From: Tomitella fengzijianii
Lineage (GTDB): Bacteria > Actinomycetota > Actinomycetes > Mycobacteriales > Mycobacteriaceae
Direction of reading: 5' to 3'
Assembly (NCBI RefSeq): GCF_007559025.1
Contig: NZ_CP041765.1
Coordinates: forward strand, 3,717,501-3,781,500
DNA: 64,000 nt
Every line of letters starts with the position of its first letter. Within the stretch, counting starts at the first letter, position 1. The notes below the pieces were generated by a model that had not been told where the DNA came from, made no database searches, and saw only the letters and a list, made by a program, of their open reading frames with translations. The position numbers were made by a program, and so were the translations under genes. Below, in pieces: positions 30,506 to 35,723 of the stretch.

Positions 30506-32662
30506 GTGGCGACGACAACTCAGACCTACCCCCACCTGCTCAGCCCCGGCCGCATCGGCCCCGTGGAGCTGAAGAACCGCGTGACGCTCTCCGCGATGGA
30601 TATGAACGTCTCCCACGACGGTGTCATCGAGAAGGAGGACATCGACCACTTCGTCGCCCGCGCCGCCGGGGGGACGGGGATGATCATCACCGGCTGCTGC
30701 TCGGTGGCCTACCCCAAGGGCAGCACCAGCACCAAGGAGCCGGGCCTGTCCGAGGACCGCTTCATCCCCGGGCTCACCGCACTGGCCGAGGCGGTGCACG
30801 AGGCCGGCAGCAAGCTGTGCATCCAGATGGTGCACCACGGCCGCGTCGCCCGCATCGACACCATCCAGGACCGGCCCATGCTGGTGCCGTCCGCGCCGCA
30901 CGTCAAGCGCGACATGAGCGCGCTGGCCGACAACACCCCCACCGAGCTGGCCAAGATGGCCGCGGTGACCGGCGGCAAGAAGGACACCTACCACGAGGCC
31001 ACCGCCGAGGACCTGGCCGAGGTGGTGCAGATCTACGCCGACGCCGCCCGCCGCGTCAAGCAGGCCGGCGCCGACGCGGTGGAGATCCACTGCGCGCACG
31101 GCTACCTGCCGGGCGGGTTCCTCAGCCGCGCCGACAACCTGCGCACCGACGAGTACGGCGGCTCGCTGGAGAACCGGGCCCGCCTGGCCTGCGAGATCAT
31201 CGCCGCGGTCAAGAAGGTGGTGGGCGACGACCTCGCCATCATCGTGCGCGTCGCCGGCCGCGAGTTCGGCGGCACCGAGGAGCCGAACGCCCTGAGCACC
31301 CCCGAGGCCGTCGCCGCCGCGCAGCTCTTCGAGGCCGCGGGCGCCGACGCCATCGACGTCACCGGCTGGGGCCGCAACCCGTTCTCCAACTTCACCGACG
31401 GCCCGCTGCCCGATCAGATCGGCGCCTACACCGACTTCGCCGGCCAGGTGAAGCAGGCCGTGGCGGTCCCTGTGATCACCGTGGGCCGCGTGCTGCCCGA
31501 GACGGGCGAGCAGGCCATCGCCGAGGGCAAGGCCGACTTCGTCGCCATGGGCCGCCAGCTGCTGGCCGACCCGGACCTGGTCAACAAGCTCAAGGCCGGG
31601 ACGCCCGAGCGGGTGCGGCCGTGCATCAACTGCTACGTGTGTGTGCAGGAGAACTTCTGGGACGACACGCCCATCTGCGCCGTGAACCCCGCGCTGGGCA
31701 ACGAGACGCTGCTGCCGTTCCCCACCGCGAAGACGGGCAAGCGCGTCGTGATCGTGGGCGCCGGGCCGTCCGGGCTGGAGACGGCGCGCATCGCCACCGA
31801 GCGCGGGCACCGGGTGACGGTGCTGGACAAGACGGATCGGCTCGGCGGCACGCTGTGGTTCTCCTCGCTCACCACGCCGGCGAACTATCCGCTGCTGGAG
31901 TGGCTGAAGAACGAGACGGCGCGCCTGGGCGTGGACATCCGGCTGAACACCGAAGCCACCCCCGAGCTCATCGCGTCGCTGCGCCCGGACACCGTCGTGC
32001 TCGCCACCGGCGCGGTGCGGGACCGCCCGCAGATCCCCGGCGGCGACCTGCCCCACGTGCACACGGGCGACACCATGCGCGCGCTGATGACCGGCGTGGG
32101 TGATACGGCCGGGCAGTCCTGGTACCTGCGTGTGGCCGGCAAGCTGGGCAAGCTTTCCGGCATCACCAAGAGCCCGAAGCGGATCCGCGAGATCACCAAG
32201 AAGTTCCTGCCGATGGGCAAGGACGTCGTGGTGATCGGCGGTTCGCTGGTGGGCCTGGAGCTGGCCGAGTTCCTCGCCGAGCGCGGCCGCCGGGTCACCC
32301 TGCTGCACGACGAGCAGCAGCTGGGACTTCCGATGGCGCTGCCCCGCCGCTGGACCGCGGTACGCCACACCCGCGAGGCAGGCGTGACCATCCACCGCAA
32401 CACCACCGCCACGCGCATCACCAAGGACCGCGTGGACTTCGAGGTGGCCGTGACCGACCGCAAGGGCACGGTGGTTGAGACCAAGGCGATGTCCGCGCCC
32501 GCGTCGATGGTGATCCACGCGCTCGGCACCGACGCCGCCGCGCCCCTCGAGCAGCAGCTCGCGGGAGTGATTGATGACGTGCGCGTGGTCGGCGACGCCG
32601 GCTCCGTCGACTACATCGAAGGCGCCATCCACACCGCGTGGAAGGTGGCGGCGGGGCTGTAG
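30506..32662 (+). CDS. old yellow enzyme/2,4-dienoyl-CoA reductase-like oxidoreductase
   Basis: 718 residues from GTG 30506; TACCCT lies 8 bases before it, so the transcript may be leaderless. The N-terminal FMN TIM barrel (LSPGRIGPVELKNRVTLSAM, CAHGYLPGGFLS, NLRTDEYGGSLENR) is followed by an iron-sulfur cysteine cluster (CINCYVC...ICAVNP). The C-terminal FAD and NAD(P) domains carry VVIVGAGPSGLETAR and VVVIGGSLVGLELAEFLAERG. The plan is that of FadH/BaiCD enzymes reducing enoyl compounds with NAD(P)H. The cysteine spacing CX2CX2C differs from the usual CX2CX3C. The chain is about 50 residues longer than FadH, with insertions before 170 and around 560. Confidence 0.87.
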   Translation: MATTTQTYPHLLSPGRIGPVELKNRVTLSAMDMNVSHDGVIEKEDIDHFVARAAGGTGMIITGCCSVAYPKGSTSTKEPGLSEDRFIPGLTALAEAVHEAGSKLCIQMVHHGRVARIDTIQDRPMLVPSAPHVKRDMSALADNTPTELAKMAAVTGGKKDTYHEATAEDLAEVVQIYADAARRVKQAGADAVEIHCAHGYLPGGFLSRADNLRTDEYGGSLENRARLACEIIAAVKKVVGDDLAIIVRVAGREFGGTEEPNALSTPEAVAAAQLFEAAGADAIDVTGWGRNPFSNFTDGPLPDQIGAYTDFAGQVKQAVAVPVITVGRVLPETGEQAIAEGKADFVAMGRQLLADPDLVNKLKAGTPERVRPCINCYVCVQENFWDDTPICAVNPALGNETLLPFPTAKTGKRVVIVGAGPSGLETARIATERGHRVTVLDKTDRLGGTLWFSSLTTPANYPLLEWLKNETARLGVDIRLNTEATPELIASLRPDTVVLATGAVRDRPQIPGGDLPHVHTGDTMRALMTGVGDTAGQSWYLRVAGKLGKLSGITKSPKRIREITKKFLPMGKDVVVIGGSLVGLELAEFLAERGRRVTLLHDEQQLGLPMALPRRWTAVRHTREAGVTIHRNTTATRITKDRVDFEVAVTDRKGTVVETKAMSAPASMVIHALGTDAAAPLEQQLAGVIDDVRVVGDAGSVDYIEGAIHTAWKVAAGL

Positions 32663-32677
32663 TTGCGACAGTCAACC

Positions 32678-32704
32678 GGCCCCTGTCGCAGCGCGACAGG
32701 GGCC
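32678..32704. terminator. bidirectional hairpin terminator
   Basis: Perfect 12-bp stem GGCCCCTGTCGC / GCGACAGGGGCC with a 3-base loop, 15 bases after the stop of the plus-strand oxidoreductase and 15 bases after the last small gene on the minus strand. It closes both converging units. Confidence 0.85.
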
Positions 32705-32719
32705 GAATTCACTTCCCGA

Positions 32720-32812
32720 CTACTTCGGAATCATCACGCTTCCGATCGGGATCAACTCAGGCAGGTTGATCGAATAGAAGGTCAGAAAGTCTAGAGAGAA
32801 CGTTTCCAACAT
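32720..32812 (-). CDS. small acidic peptide E, 30 aa
   Basis: ATG 32812 follows an excellent Shine-Dalgarno (AAGGAGGGG, 4-6 base spacing) that overlaps the stop of the preceding small gene. The peptide starts MLETFSLDFLTFYSINL and ends SVMIPK: hydrophobic, one Lys against three acidic residues, no Cys or His. The first four residues, MLET, match those of peptide D. It is the last gene before the hairpin terminator. It is too short for any known domain, and without signal sequence or processing site. Confidence 0.65.
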   Translation of the reverse strand: MLETFSLDFLTFYSINLPELIPIGSVMIPK

Positions 32813-32823
32813 GGTTCCCCTCC

Positions 32824-32940
32824 TTACGTCGTCTCGGGCGTCGATGAGAGCGCATCGAGGTACTCTCCGAAGACCCCCACAAGATCCACTAGCATGAAGT
32901 TCACAATATTCGATAGTGAAGCTGTCGATGTTTCAAGCAA
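32824..32940 (-). CDS. small acidic peptide D, 38 aa
   Basis: Start TTG 32940, chosen because AAGGGAGAG lies 5 bases upstream; no ATG in frame has a ribosome site. It reads MLETSTASLSNIVNF, then a hydrophobic stretch with acidic residues every three or four positions (MLVDLVGVFGEYLDAL), and a Ser/Thr tail. Five acidic residues and no Lys, Arg, Cys or His. Drawn as a helix, it is amphipathic. Its stop codon TAA is the first part of the next gene's Shine-Dalgarno. Confidence 0.65.
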   Translation of the reverse strand: MLETSTASLSNIVNFMLVDLVGVFGEYLDALSSTPETT

Positions 32941-32961
32941 TTACTCTCTCCCTTCAGAGCA

Positions 32962-33153
32962 TCAAGCACTGGCTGAAGATGCCAGGCCGCTATCGATCAA
33001 TCCCGCCAGAGCCCCCGAGCCGCTAACACCAACCTCCAGAGCGCCGGAAATCGCGGCAAATACGTTCTCGACGATGCCGACGCTCCCCCTGCCGAGCGGG
33101 GCTAAGGACGATGCATCGATACTCCCGAGAGCATCCAGAATGCTTCCTGTCAC
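32962..33153 (-). CDS. small acidic peptide C, 63 aa
   Basis: GTG 33153 with AAAGGAGAG upstream at about 5-7 bases. Composition is Ala/Gly/Ser/Leu/Val/Ile-rich, with five acidic residues and one Arg, no Cys, aromatic content nearly nil. It opens MTGSILDALGSIDASSLAPL, and the middle VGIVENVFAAISGALEVG would form a hydrophobic helix. No signal-peptidase motif with a charged n-region. Size and character recall mycolata PorH-type channel peptides. Confidence 0.65.
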   Translation of the reverse strand: MTGSILDALGSIDASSLAPLGRGSVGIVENVFAAISGALEVGVSGSGALAGLIDSGLASSASA

Positions 33154-33205
33154 AGCAACTCTCCTTTGTGCATTTCGTACCTAACGATTAGAAATCGATA
33201 CACCT

Positions 33206-33337
33206 CTAAGGCTGTTTCCATTCGGAGTCCATCGACAGGGTCAATGGCTTGATTGACATCGCCCCGAGCATTGGAGCCACCAAGAGATCCCACATCGGGT
33301 TGTTGACGGCGTCGACAACCGATCCAAAAGAGCCCAT
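33206..33337 (-). CDS. small acidic peptide B, 43 aa
   Basis: ATG 33337 preceded by AGGAAGG (9-base spacing). Reads MGSFGSVVDAVNNPMWDLLV, then APMLGAMSIKPLTLSMDSE and WKQP. Third codon positions are mostly G/C in this frame, unlike the overlapping 65-codon frame from GTG 33347. Net charge about -2, no Cys or His, two Trp and five internal or initial Met. Hydrophobic with scattered Asp and Lys, fitting the other small genes of this string. Confidence 0.6.
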   Translation of the reverse strand: MGSFGSVVDAVNNPMWDLLVAPMLGAMSIKPLTLSMDSEWKQP

Positions 33338-33378
33338 AACTAGTCACCTTCCTGCTAAGTTCGGCAATTTACAAATAG

Positions 33379-33501
33379 TCAGCTCATCGTGACGACCCCG
33401 TCCTTGAACACATCAAGACTCGGCATTATTGAGCCCGACCACGTGGCATTCAGCAATCCCGAAATGAGATCGATCGTAGCTCGTAAGAAATCCGTAGACA
33501 T
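33379..33501 (-). CDS. small acidic peptide A, 40 aa
   Basis: ATG 33501 with GGAG 5 bases upstream; another ATG at 33505 in a different frame is too close to the ribosome site. Reads MSTDFLRATIDLISGLLNAT, then WSGSIMPSLDVFKDGVVTMS. Four Asp against one Arg and one Lys, no Cys. The first 20 residues form an amphipathic helix (DFLRATIDLISGLLNA). It lies 35 bases downstream of the exported-protein gene and is probably in the same operon. Confidence 0.65.
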   Translation of the reverse strand: MSTDFLRATIDLISGLLNATWSGSIMPSLDVFKDGVVTMS

Positions 33502-33536
33502 GCATTCTCCATTCTCTTCTTAGCCGGTGACTCGCA

Positions 33537-34033
33537 TCAATTTGCTACCGCATCGATATCCTTTGCCGAAGCGACAATGAGATTGAAGGGATCGGCGTAG
33601 AGGTGGCTGTTGAACTCTGCCTCATAAATGTCGACACAGTCGGAACCGGAGCCGAGGAAACTGAACGGCTTTCCATTCACCGCAGCCGGGTCCACGCAGA
33701 CGGTAACGTACCCGCCGTTGTAGATCGTATCCGCCAGAGTCGCATCCCCCTGGATGCACCAACCACCACCCGAATTGGTTTCGTCCTGGTATGGACCGGT
33801 CACCAGGTTACCTGTGGAATTGTAAAGATTGCCCGTCACTGTTGCACCCTCAACCGCCGAATCCGGGGAGACATACACGTTTCCGCACATTTCCAGATTT
33901 GCCGTGGGGACCTCGTCTACTACGGATTCTGGCCCATGCACGATAACGGCCGCGCTCGCCGCCGTTGCAAGACCCACCGTAAGGCCGGCGGCGGCCGTTA
34001 CCATTACGATGTACGCACGCTTCGCTTAAACAC
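33537..34033 (-). CDS. exported Cys-containing protein, signal peptide split by frameshift
   Basis: From ATG 34004 the frame gives 155 residues starting MVTAAAGLTVGLATAASA, a hydrophobic core and signal-peptidase site without the usual positive n-region and without a Shine-Dalgarno. Directly upstream, AGGAG (34039-34043) and GTG 34033 begin MFKRSVRTS, a perfect n-region, but in another frame that ends at TAA overlapping the ATG (TAATG). One missing base would join them. The mature part has four Cys (EMCGNVY, WCIQGD, VTVCVD, SDCVDIYE), probably two disulfides, and strand-like repeats. No family recognised. It is the first gene of the small-peptide string. Confidence 0.6.
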
Positions 34034-34088
34034 AACAACTCCTAAACAAACTGATCGCAAAAACTAGCATCCACAATTTACCGAAACA

Positions 34089-34099
34089 GATCAGTGATC
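34089..34099. promoter_or_regulatory. palindrome upstream of the peptide operon
   Basis: GATCAGTGATC, a perfect 11-base palindrome in an AT-rich region about 45 bases upstream of the AGGAG/GTG start of the exported-protein gene. Possible operator; no cognate regulator is adjacent. Confidence 0.35.
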
Positions 34100-34282
34100 A
34101 GCCCAGGCCTCATAGACGCAAGGGGGCGCCAACCGAACGTCGTCCCCATCCTCACCTCCCCTGCCGTACCGCACGCTGACTGCGTGATGCAGGTCACCGT
34201 AGAACAGTAGTGTGGAACACGTAACCCCTCCGGTCAATACGTTTAGCGCTGGATGCCCCGACTCCGTGCAACAACAGGTTCA

Positions 34283-35397
34283 CCAAGTGAACGGCGGTGT
34301 CATAGCGTCGTAGCAATGATGCTGGTGACACGGTAGGAGTGGTGGGTTGGGGCGGCGGCAGCTGACGCTGGACGACAGAGTGCAGATCGCGGTCGGGATC
34401 AAGGCCGGTCTGTCCGACGCGGAGATCGGTGAGGACATCGGCCGGAACCCGACGGTGATCTGGCGCGAACGCAAACGCAACGCCAGCGCGGCCGGCGGCT
34501 ACCGGCCAGTGGCCGCCGACCGCGCAGCACGAGGGCGCCGTAGCAGACCACAGACCCGCAAGATCGACGCGGACCCGCAGCTTGAGCTGCGGGTCCGCAC
34601 CGATCTGCGCCACTCACGCACGCCCCGCCAGATCGCCGGCAGGTTGCACCGTGAAGCTACCGACGACAGCGTGGACACCATGGTGCATTCCCCTGACGCC
34701 GGAGGCCGAACCATCTCACACGAGGCCATCTACCAGTGGATCTACGCGCTGCCCAAGGGCGAGCTCGCCAAGTCCGGGATCCTGTTGCGCTCCAAGCGCA
34801 CCCGCCGCAAGCCCCGTAAGGCGCTCGGCGAGCGCACCGGCGCGAAGATCGTCGGCATGGTCTCGATCGACGACCGGCCCGAGCAGGCCTCCGACCGCAG
34901 GGTTCCTGGATCGTGGGAAGGCGATCTGATCATCGGGAAGGGCGGCAAGTCCGCGGCCGCCACCTTGGTCGAGCGCACCAGCAGGTTCACCCTGATCTGC
35001 GGTCTTCCCGCAGGTAAGAACGCCGACGGCCTCGCAGATGTGCTCATCGATACGGTCAGCGGCATGCCCCGGCACATCCTCGGTTCCCTGACCTGGGATC
35101 AGGGGACCGAGATGGCCCGGCATGCCGCGCTGACCACGGCCACGGACCTGAAGGTGTACTTCGCTCATCCGCACTCGCCGTGGGAGCGCGGCACCAACGA
35201 GAACACGAACGGGCTGATCCGCGAGTACCTGCCGAAGGGCATCGAGATCACCGACCACCAGCCCTACCTGGACACGATCGCCGACGAGCTCAACGACCGG
35301 CCACGCGCGGTACTCGGCTTCCTCACCCCGCGGGAGGTGTTCACGAAGCTACTGGCCGAGCCGATTGCTTCCACGAGTTGACACTGCCAACTCTTGG
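34283..35397 (+). mobile_element. IS30-family insertion sequence
   Basis: About 1.1 kb, bounded by imperfect inverted repeats: CCAAGTGAACGGCGGTGTCA at 34283-34302 and the complement of CCAAGAGTTGGCAGTGTCA at 35379-35397 (CCAAG and GGC-GTGTCA conserved). It contains one intact transposase gene. Size matches IS30 elements. It abuts the 5' side of the AT-rich peptide island. No clear target duplication is visible, so exact ends are provisional. Confidence 0.72.
34347..35381 (+). CDS. IS30-family transposase
   Basis: 344 residues from TTG 34347 with AGGAG 7 bases upstream. The N-terminal HTH reads LTLDDRVQIAVGIKAGLSDAEIGEDIGRNPTVIWRE. The catalytic triad is complete with IS30 spacing: Asp193 in SWEGDLIIG, Asp251 in TWDQGTEM and Glu285 in WERGTNENTNGLIREYLPKG, i.e. 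DD(33)E. Full length, no frameshift, so the element may be active. GC content is like the chromosome, unlike the adjacent peptide island. Confidence 0.93.
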   Translation: MGRRQLTLDDRVQIAVGIKAGLSDAEIGEDIGRNPTVIWRERKRNASAAGGYRPVAADRAARGRRSRPQTRKIDADPQLELRVRTDLRHSRTPRQIAGRLHREATDDSVDTMVHSPDAGGRTISHEAIYQWIYALPKGELAKSGILLRSKRTRRKPRKALGERTGAKIVGMVSIDDRPEQASDRRVPGSWEGDLIIGKGGKSAAATLVERTSRFTLICGLPAGKNADGLADVLIDTVSGMPRHILGSLTWDQGTEMARHAALTTATDLKVYFAHPHSPWERGTNENTNGLIREYLPKGIEITDHQPYLDTIADELNDRPRAVLGFLTPREVFTKLLAEPIASTS

Positions 35398-35723
35398 GGG
35401 GGTATTCTTTGGTAGCGACATGCCTCTACGGTGACGGAAGCTGACGATCCGACACGGCCGGATCATGCTTCAATACGCTGTCCACGCAGTCCGCACATAC
35501 CTGAGACGGCGAAGCTGGGTCCACGGGCCGTAGGCTTCGATCGGCATCTACTGTGCCTCGCCTGCAAGATCTTCCAATTGCGGATCTACGTATTCAGACG
35601 CCGGATCAATCGGCATACATCCTGACTGAGTCCGGAATCTGGCCACGCAACGTTCGCGCTTCGCACTGCTTGGACCCCGCATCCGGGTGCCTTTCACCGC
35701 CCCCCCGTTCAGCAGTGTGCCCG
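35398..35723. other. gene-free spacer downstream of the IS
   Basis: About 325 bases between the right end of the IS30 element and the stop of the oxidoreductase. No convincing gene, repeat or hairpin found. Mixed composition with AT-rich patches near 35405-35420 suggests it belongs to the same foreign segment as the left side of the IS. Confidence 0.5.

Follow-up and report, generated by a model that had tools for sequence, protein, structure and literature searches.

Conserved cassettes of four or five signal-less micro-peptides in Tomitella, Rhodococcus and relatives: candidates for a lipid-anchored envelope assembly

Five adjacent micro-genes of the actinobacterium Tomitella fengzijianii belong, on the evidence of sequence conservation, to a real gene set that is common to this genome, Rhodococcus and relatives, and that comes in a four-peptide and a five-peptide class. 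They lie in a stretch of 64,000 nucleotides (contig NZ_CP041765.1, positions 3,717,501 to 3,781,500), henceforth the window, whose own numbering is used throughout. We tentatively propose that the peptides form a lipid-anchored hetero-oligomeric assembly in the mycomembrane, with a channel as its likeliest form; it would be like PorA and PorH of Corynebacterium in action, with no shown relation to them; we give this reading a little less than an even chance.

The cassette of the window and the reality of its genes

The five genes are adjacent and co-oriented on the minus strand, and their small products appear from the sequences to be signal-less. In order they are A (P1, 33379..33501, 40 aa, ATG start), B (P2, 33206..33337, 43 aa, ATG start), X (P3, 32962..33153, 63 aa, GTG start, found in the five-peptide class only), C (P4, 32824..32940, 38 aa, TTG start) and D (P5, 32720..32812, 30 aa, ATG start), the last being the least certain. 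The coordinates and lengths given in the first-pass annotation are correct, as is the absence of Cys; a Shine-Dalgarno-like sequence stands upstream of each micro-gene as claimed, and the reported AT-rich dip is real (GC 52% versus 72% in the flanks). The GC content of the cassettes lies below that of their own flanks at all 12 loci measured (0.51-0.58 versus 0.57-0.73). The minus-strand hairpin 3' of the cassette (32678..32704) has the perfect stem ascribed to it (-33.8 kcal/mol, z -7.5) and no T tract, and is likely a terminator between convergent genes. Acidity, which had been put forward as a common property, holds for the window copy (net charges of P1-P5: -2, -2, -4, -5, -2) but not as a trait of the class: the net charges of four-peptide relatives lie between 0 and -4, and peptide D at one five-peptide locus (L071) has a charge of +2, judged by eye. 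Likewise, the MLET opening common to P4 and P5 is present but is weak evidence of kinship, the C and D profiles giving 1.9% in hhalign; on the D profile, the C peptide of a congener reaches 10.4 bits. Compared with Pfam up to E 1, P1-P6 had no match. The pepB profile matched TALE repeats in the PDB; these matches contained no single passing stretch and were set aside as a repeat artefact.

As the earlier reading had it, the gene of an exported protein (33537..34004, minus strand) precedes the cassette, but its N terminus is doubtful. The best Shine-Dalgarno sequence and start (AGGAG with a GTG at ~34033, spanning 34031..34046 on the minus strand) are not in frame with the ORF of the exported protein; therefore, the gene either opens at the ATG at 34004 or is damaged. 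The start is also ambiguous in a congener (L003/L009). At 4 of the 20 places at which the gene was retained in our searches (the window, L011, L013 and L022) the frame looks broken while the adjoining peptides stay open, and decay, phase variation or sequencing error may each account for these breaks. The protein has a weak CarboxypepD_reg/transthyretin-like match: 6 of 14 members match CarboxypepD_reg at E <= 0.1, the best at 3.1e-5. It is predicted to be a beta-sandwich (pLDDT 81.9, pTM 0.74), with weak fold matches to dioxygenase, pilin and prealbumin-like structures (best E 0.0022).

Taken alone, the string of ORFs is unexceptional: under a strict rule (Shine-Dalgarno sequence of at least 5 bases, ORF of 25-75 aa) it yields a chain of three, and the longest one in the rest of the window has three as well, as might be expected if the frames were spurious. 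We accept the cassette genes as real because they are conserved and not because of the string. Profiles of peptides from outside the genus recognize P1 (38.8 bits, profile of 16 A peptides), P2 (26.9 bits, B), P3 (52.3 bits, X) and P4 (44.0 bits, C), none of 1000 shuffles reaching the score in any of these cases. P5 attains 2.9 bits on the D profile (18 of 1000 shuffles) and 4.5 bits on the C profile; it is supported by its position, its Gly-Ser pair and the D peptide of the congener, which scores 13.5 bits. The remaining peptides of the congener score 33.8 (A), 28.2 (B), 29.6 (X) and 36.5 bits (C), and none of 1000 shuffles reaches the score of any of its five. With the exception of P5, every peptide of the window and the congener scores highest on its own profile. 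A test with shallow profiles of three or fewer sequences, weaker for X and D than the deeper ones, gave 7.5 bits for P3 (5 of 1000 shuffles), 2.3 for P5 (6 of 1000) and 2.4 for the D peptide of the congener (39 of 1000).

With the deeper profiles, 22 of the 23 five-peptide loci are complete and ordered, the sole gap being the window, which has no formal D match at E 0.5. The five peptides show conserved synteny: all 21 loci outside the genus keep the order A-B-X-C-D, although these loci also supplied the profile sequences and include some near-duplicates (for example L143/L144, L149/L150, L148/L155 and L071/L072). The sequences drawn from them number 16 for A, 16 for B, 14 for X, 17 for C and 15 for D, a set that omits near-duplicates and ORFs absent from the script's listing. 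Ten species pairs were compared across A-D, X being excluded from this test: nine have a dN/dS of 0.17-0.38 and the tenth a saturated dS, and the values in frame-shifted controls are 0.91-2.47; the pairs ARC-G120 (dS saturated) and window-G004 (nearly so, dS 3.2) carry little weight. As far as comparative evidence reaches, these profile matches, the kept order and the dN/dS values show that the cassette peptides are translated, under purifying selection and fixed in order. Conservation and codon evidence refute the reading of P1-P4 as spurious ORFs and leave P5 less certain; for the cassette overall, we regard that reading as extremely improbable.

Distribution, neighbors and a variable site

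The exported protein was found in 4 of 61 genomes searched, its own included, and at the congener locus L003 its gene is followed by counterparts of all five small ORFs, ordered as in the window. An alignment of the protein matched 23 of 401 genomes family-wide at E <= 0.01; dropping the 7 of 27 places with E above 3.1e-8, and with them 5 of the 23 genomes, leaves 20 places in 18 genomes. Twelve of these adjoin a four-peptide cassette (A-B-C-D), five a five-peptide cassette (A-B-X-C-D, the window among them) and two a divergent four-peptide set; the last has merely two candidate small ORFs. One genome harbors three loci of the exported protein (L075, L076 and L077), of which two adjoin divergent four-peptide sets. 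An order-wide sample gave 2 matches in 249, the window's own and a weak one (E 4e-5) within a 575-aa frame of another family.

Searches with the peptides themselves find both classes within the family. The profile of peptide B of the four-peptide class has strong matches (E <= 7.5e-12) in 13 of 401 family genomes, 18 of the 31 genomes matched having been dropped (E 0.0024-0.098, 13 of them within frames of at least 179 aa). That of peptide C of the five-peptide class has strong matches (E <= 3.8e-13) in 23 of 401, with 3 of 26 genomes dropped (E 0.0014-0.018). At least one class is thus present in 27 genomes of the family samples and both in 9, as in the genome with loci L086 and L151; these class counts are lower bounds because a single peptide profile was used for each. 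Carriers of the four-peptide B include two Rhodococcus sp., R. tukisamuensis, Speluncibacter jeojiensis and four Prescottella species, among them P. equi (L066), and a complete four-peptide cassette was confirmed among the named carriers at L063 and L070. A class-wide search found 0 in 296, using a profile of the four-peptide class that misses even the genome of the window. Between the two classes, hhalign relates A to A (93.8%) and D to D (44.7%), and the B peptides (2.4%) and C peptides (4.8%) are linked by position and resemblance only. The N termini of the A and D families resemble each other (hhalign 37%, E 3.5e-4), and this likeness suggests an old duplication.

The neighbors of the cassettes differ between the classes. 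The gene of the exported protein is close to 12 of 13 four-peptide cassettes; among the 23 five-peptide cassettes, 5 have it within ~3.5 kb. At 20 of the 21 five-peptide loci outside the genus (the exception is L158), a gene for an acyltransferase of the WS/DGAT family adjoins the cassette on its downstream side, in the same orientation; L154 has it in pieces, at L155 the contig end cuts it and at L149 it is short, and L143, L144, L149 and L150 have a second such gene further on. No WS/DGAT gene stands beside the cassette of the window or its congener, nor, within the sequence examined, at any of the 16 loci of the four-peptide or divergent kind. A representative matches PF03007 (1.2e-31) and PF06974 (2.4e-10), and of the 26 matching ORFs 24 have the HHxxxDG motif; those without it are two pieces at L154. 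Of the five-peptide loci, nine share one set of other neighbors and nine a second one; the WS/DGAT link has therefore outlived a change of surroundings. Known members of this family acylate alcohols and diacylglycerol, and we know of none that acylates peptides.

The cassette of the window sits in a variable island (32662..35719) between two conserved genes. In DNA-level comparisons of the window with each of two congeners, the island has no blastn match (E <= 1e-3), and its flanks are 96-97% identical on one side and 89% on the other. At this site in the two congeners (loci L088 and L089), G003 carries a four-peptide set and G004 a distant set of five. With matching flanks and unlike cassettes, the site has either received different cassettes or diversified very fast. 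The island also holds an IS30-family transposase gene (34347..35381, plus strand) upstream of the operon, between the cassette and a neighboring reductase gene; a simple search shows no inverted repeat at the ends of the element. In two other genomes (G001 and G002), the reductase of the other flank was not found near the oxidoreductase.

Peptide features and comparison with known systems

A feature of the five-peptide class is the Gly-Ser pair, which is present in all 78 of its peptides from outside the genus, at 1.1-4.4 per peptide versus 0.2-1.3 in shuffled sequences (~three- to six-fold). Invariant or near-invariant pairs occupy positions 23-24 and 34-35 of A, 5-6 of B, 16-17 of C and 24-25 of D, and the X family has three pairs, each in 12 or 13 of 14 sequences. 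In addition, the core of family A ends in Ser in 15 of 16 sequences, and family C has an invariant Ser at position 32, preceded by Leu. In the window, P1, P2, P3 and P5 contain Gly-Ser and P4 does not. The four-peptide class is less uniform: pairs occur in 11 of 12 A, 5 of 10 B, 8 of 10 C and 6 of 10 D peptides, D falling below its own shuffles. Neither PorA nor PorH is enriched over shuffles. The pairs may be sites of acylation or, alternatively, structural turns. As regards the former, the available text of PMC11066868 places O-mycoloylation sites mostly on Ser near Gly, Ala or Ser, with no strict motif, and that of PMC5310785 reports modification of PorH at Ser56 of its terminal NFSS and of ProtX at the penultimate Ser. 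Average amphipathicity is elevated in each of the families (mean z 0.95-2.03), the values for PorA and PorH being 2.3 and 2.6. For P1-P5 of the window, 14, 67, 43, 49 and 379 of 500 shuffles match the observed amphipathicity, so P1 alone is clear.

The first-pass annotation had likened the string to PorA and PorH. The analogy holds in the mycolic-acid-bearing host, the size (~38-57 aa in PorA, PorH and ProtX), the lack of a signal, and adjacency, as of the PorA and PorH genes, and it extends to a Cmt1-type enzyme; it is not supported as membership in the same family. Ten peptide alignments compared by hhalign with 13 PorA and 14 PorH sequences gave at most 6% probability, and kinship was set aside for want of detectable homology, though the test has limited power because hhalign also missed the relation of the B and of the C peptides between the two classes. 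Further differences are the number of peptides, four or five instead of two, the Gly-Ser pairs of the five-peptide class, and a neighbor that is either a beta-sandwich protein or a WS/DGAT enzyme. As for enzymes, the genome of the window encodes eight PF00756 proteins above the cut-off; matches are also found in 12 of 14 control genomes, and therefore the count alone says little. When three of these proteins were compared with solved structures, two best matched Cmt1 and one PS1.

The MspA-like channels (PF09203) of Rhodococcus and Nocardia come from the same bacterial group and possibly do the same job, but they are ~20 kDa proteins with a signal peptide according to the available portion of PMC9233653, whereas the cassette peptides have 30-63 aa and no Pfam match. 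A search of titles and abstracts in the openly licensed literature returned no paper describing these cassettes.

Possible functions and their implications

Our preferred reading runs as follows. The peptides of a cassette, five in the window, would be co-expressed as signal-less, hydrophobic molecules that exit the cytoplasm by a route we do not specify. They would then be O-acylated on serine, candidate sites being the Leu-Ser of peptide C and the Gly-Ser pairs that are conserved in the families. The acylated peptides would come together in the mycomembrane as a lipid-anchored hetero-oligomer, of which a channel is the likeliest form, with the secreted beta-sandwich protein as a putative extracellular partner. 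The fixed A-B-X-C-D order, the recognition of P1-P4 and the purifying dN/dS are consistent with such an assembly, as are the average amphipathicity of the families, the Gly-Ser content, the Cmt1-like enzymes and the secreted-protein gene near four-peptide cassettes; variability at one site is expected of exposed parts of the envelope. Against it are the lack of detectable homology to PorA and PorH, the absence of Gly-Ser enrichment in these two, the partial enrichment of the four-peptide class, the absence of a pair from P4, clear amphipathicity in no peptide of the window but P1, and the WS/DGAT neighbor elsewhere, which points to cytoplasmic lipid chemistry. Moreover, the Rhodococcus channels characterized in the available text of PMC9233653 are MspA-like proteins with a signal peptide.

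The WS/DGAT gene can be accommodated in more than one way. The enzyme might itself O-acylate all five peptides at their invariant Gly-Ser pairs inside the cell, the acylated set then assembling in the mycomembrane; in the genus of the window, it would have to act from elsewhere in the genome or to have been replaced, and we consider this version unlikely. Alternatively, the peptides might stay in the cytoplasm and coat, or help to form, the wax-ester or triacylglycerol droplets of the neighboring enzyme. The persistence of the gene at 20 of 21 loci, which represent no fewer than two distinct chromosomal settings, the absence of signal peptides and the average amphipathicity would agree with a droplet role, but the enzyme is missing beside the cassettes of the window, the congener and all four-peptide or divergent loci, a secreted protein lies near the four-peptide and some five-peptide cassettes, and one-site variability is unexpected for a storage protein; such a role therefore seems to us rather improbable.

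Two further possibilities would take the peptides out of the cell without a channel or as weapons. Neutral to acidic, hydrophobic peptides that occur several together with a secreted protein nearby could be surface-active or sheath material released to the surface with that protein as partner, yet the strict five-part order suggests a defined complex and no recurrent transporter was recognized, and we judge this doubtful. Leaderless bacteriocins likewise comprise several peptides without a leader, and the variability of the cassettes at one site would suit a multi-peptide bacteriocin. Such bacteriocins are, however, cationic and accompanied by an adjacent ABC transporter or immunity gene, whereas the peptides of the window and the four-peptide class range from 0 to -5, and clustering of the neighbors, some of which are unannotated, revealed no recognized recurrent gene of either kind. 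PADLOC gave no match, PHROGs gave two (both E ~0.09) of unknown function, and nine genomes carry both classes. The initial preference for channel peptides over cationic bacteriocins was thus reasonable, and a bacteriocin is very unlikely.

Returning to the envelope assembly, three elements are new relative to the original reading: the WS/DGAT gene next to five-peptide cassettes, the Gly-Ser pairs and the variable site. To our knowledge, signal-less helical channel peptides are established in Corynebacterium only; if rhodococci use other sets, of four or five peptides, the strategy would be wider than thought. How the Corynebacterium peptides cross the inner membrane is described as unclear in the available part of a preprint (PMC12632848), and ProtX and PorA are required for infection of C. 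glutamicum by phage Cog, as stated in the accessible text of PMC9671496. Two channel-forming proteins, one of them anion-selective, were reported from Rhodococcus equi (Riess et al. 2003, as cited in the available text of PMC9233653), and the cassettes offer gene candidates for them. The Gly-Ser pairs and the acyltransferase neighbor together make for a precise prediction for mass spectrometry. If the WS/DGAT reading is true, a family of storage-lipid enzymes would here O-acylate ribosomal peptides, and the five-part assembly would be independent of PorA and PorH.
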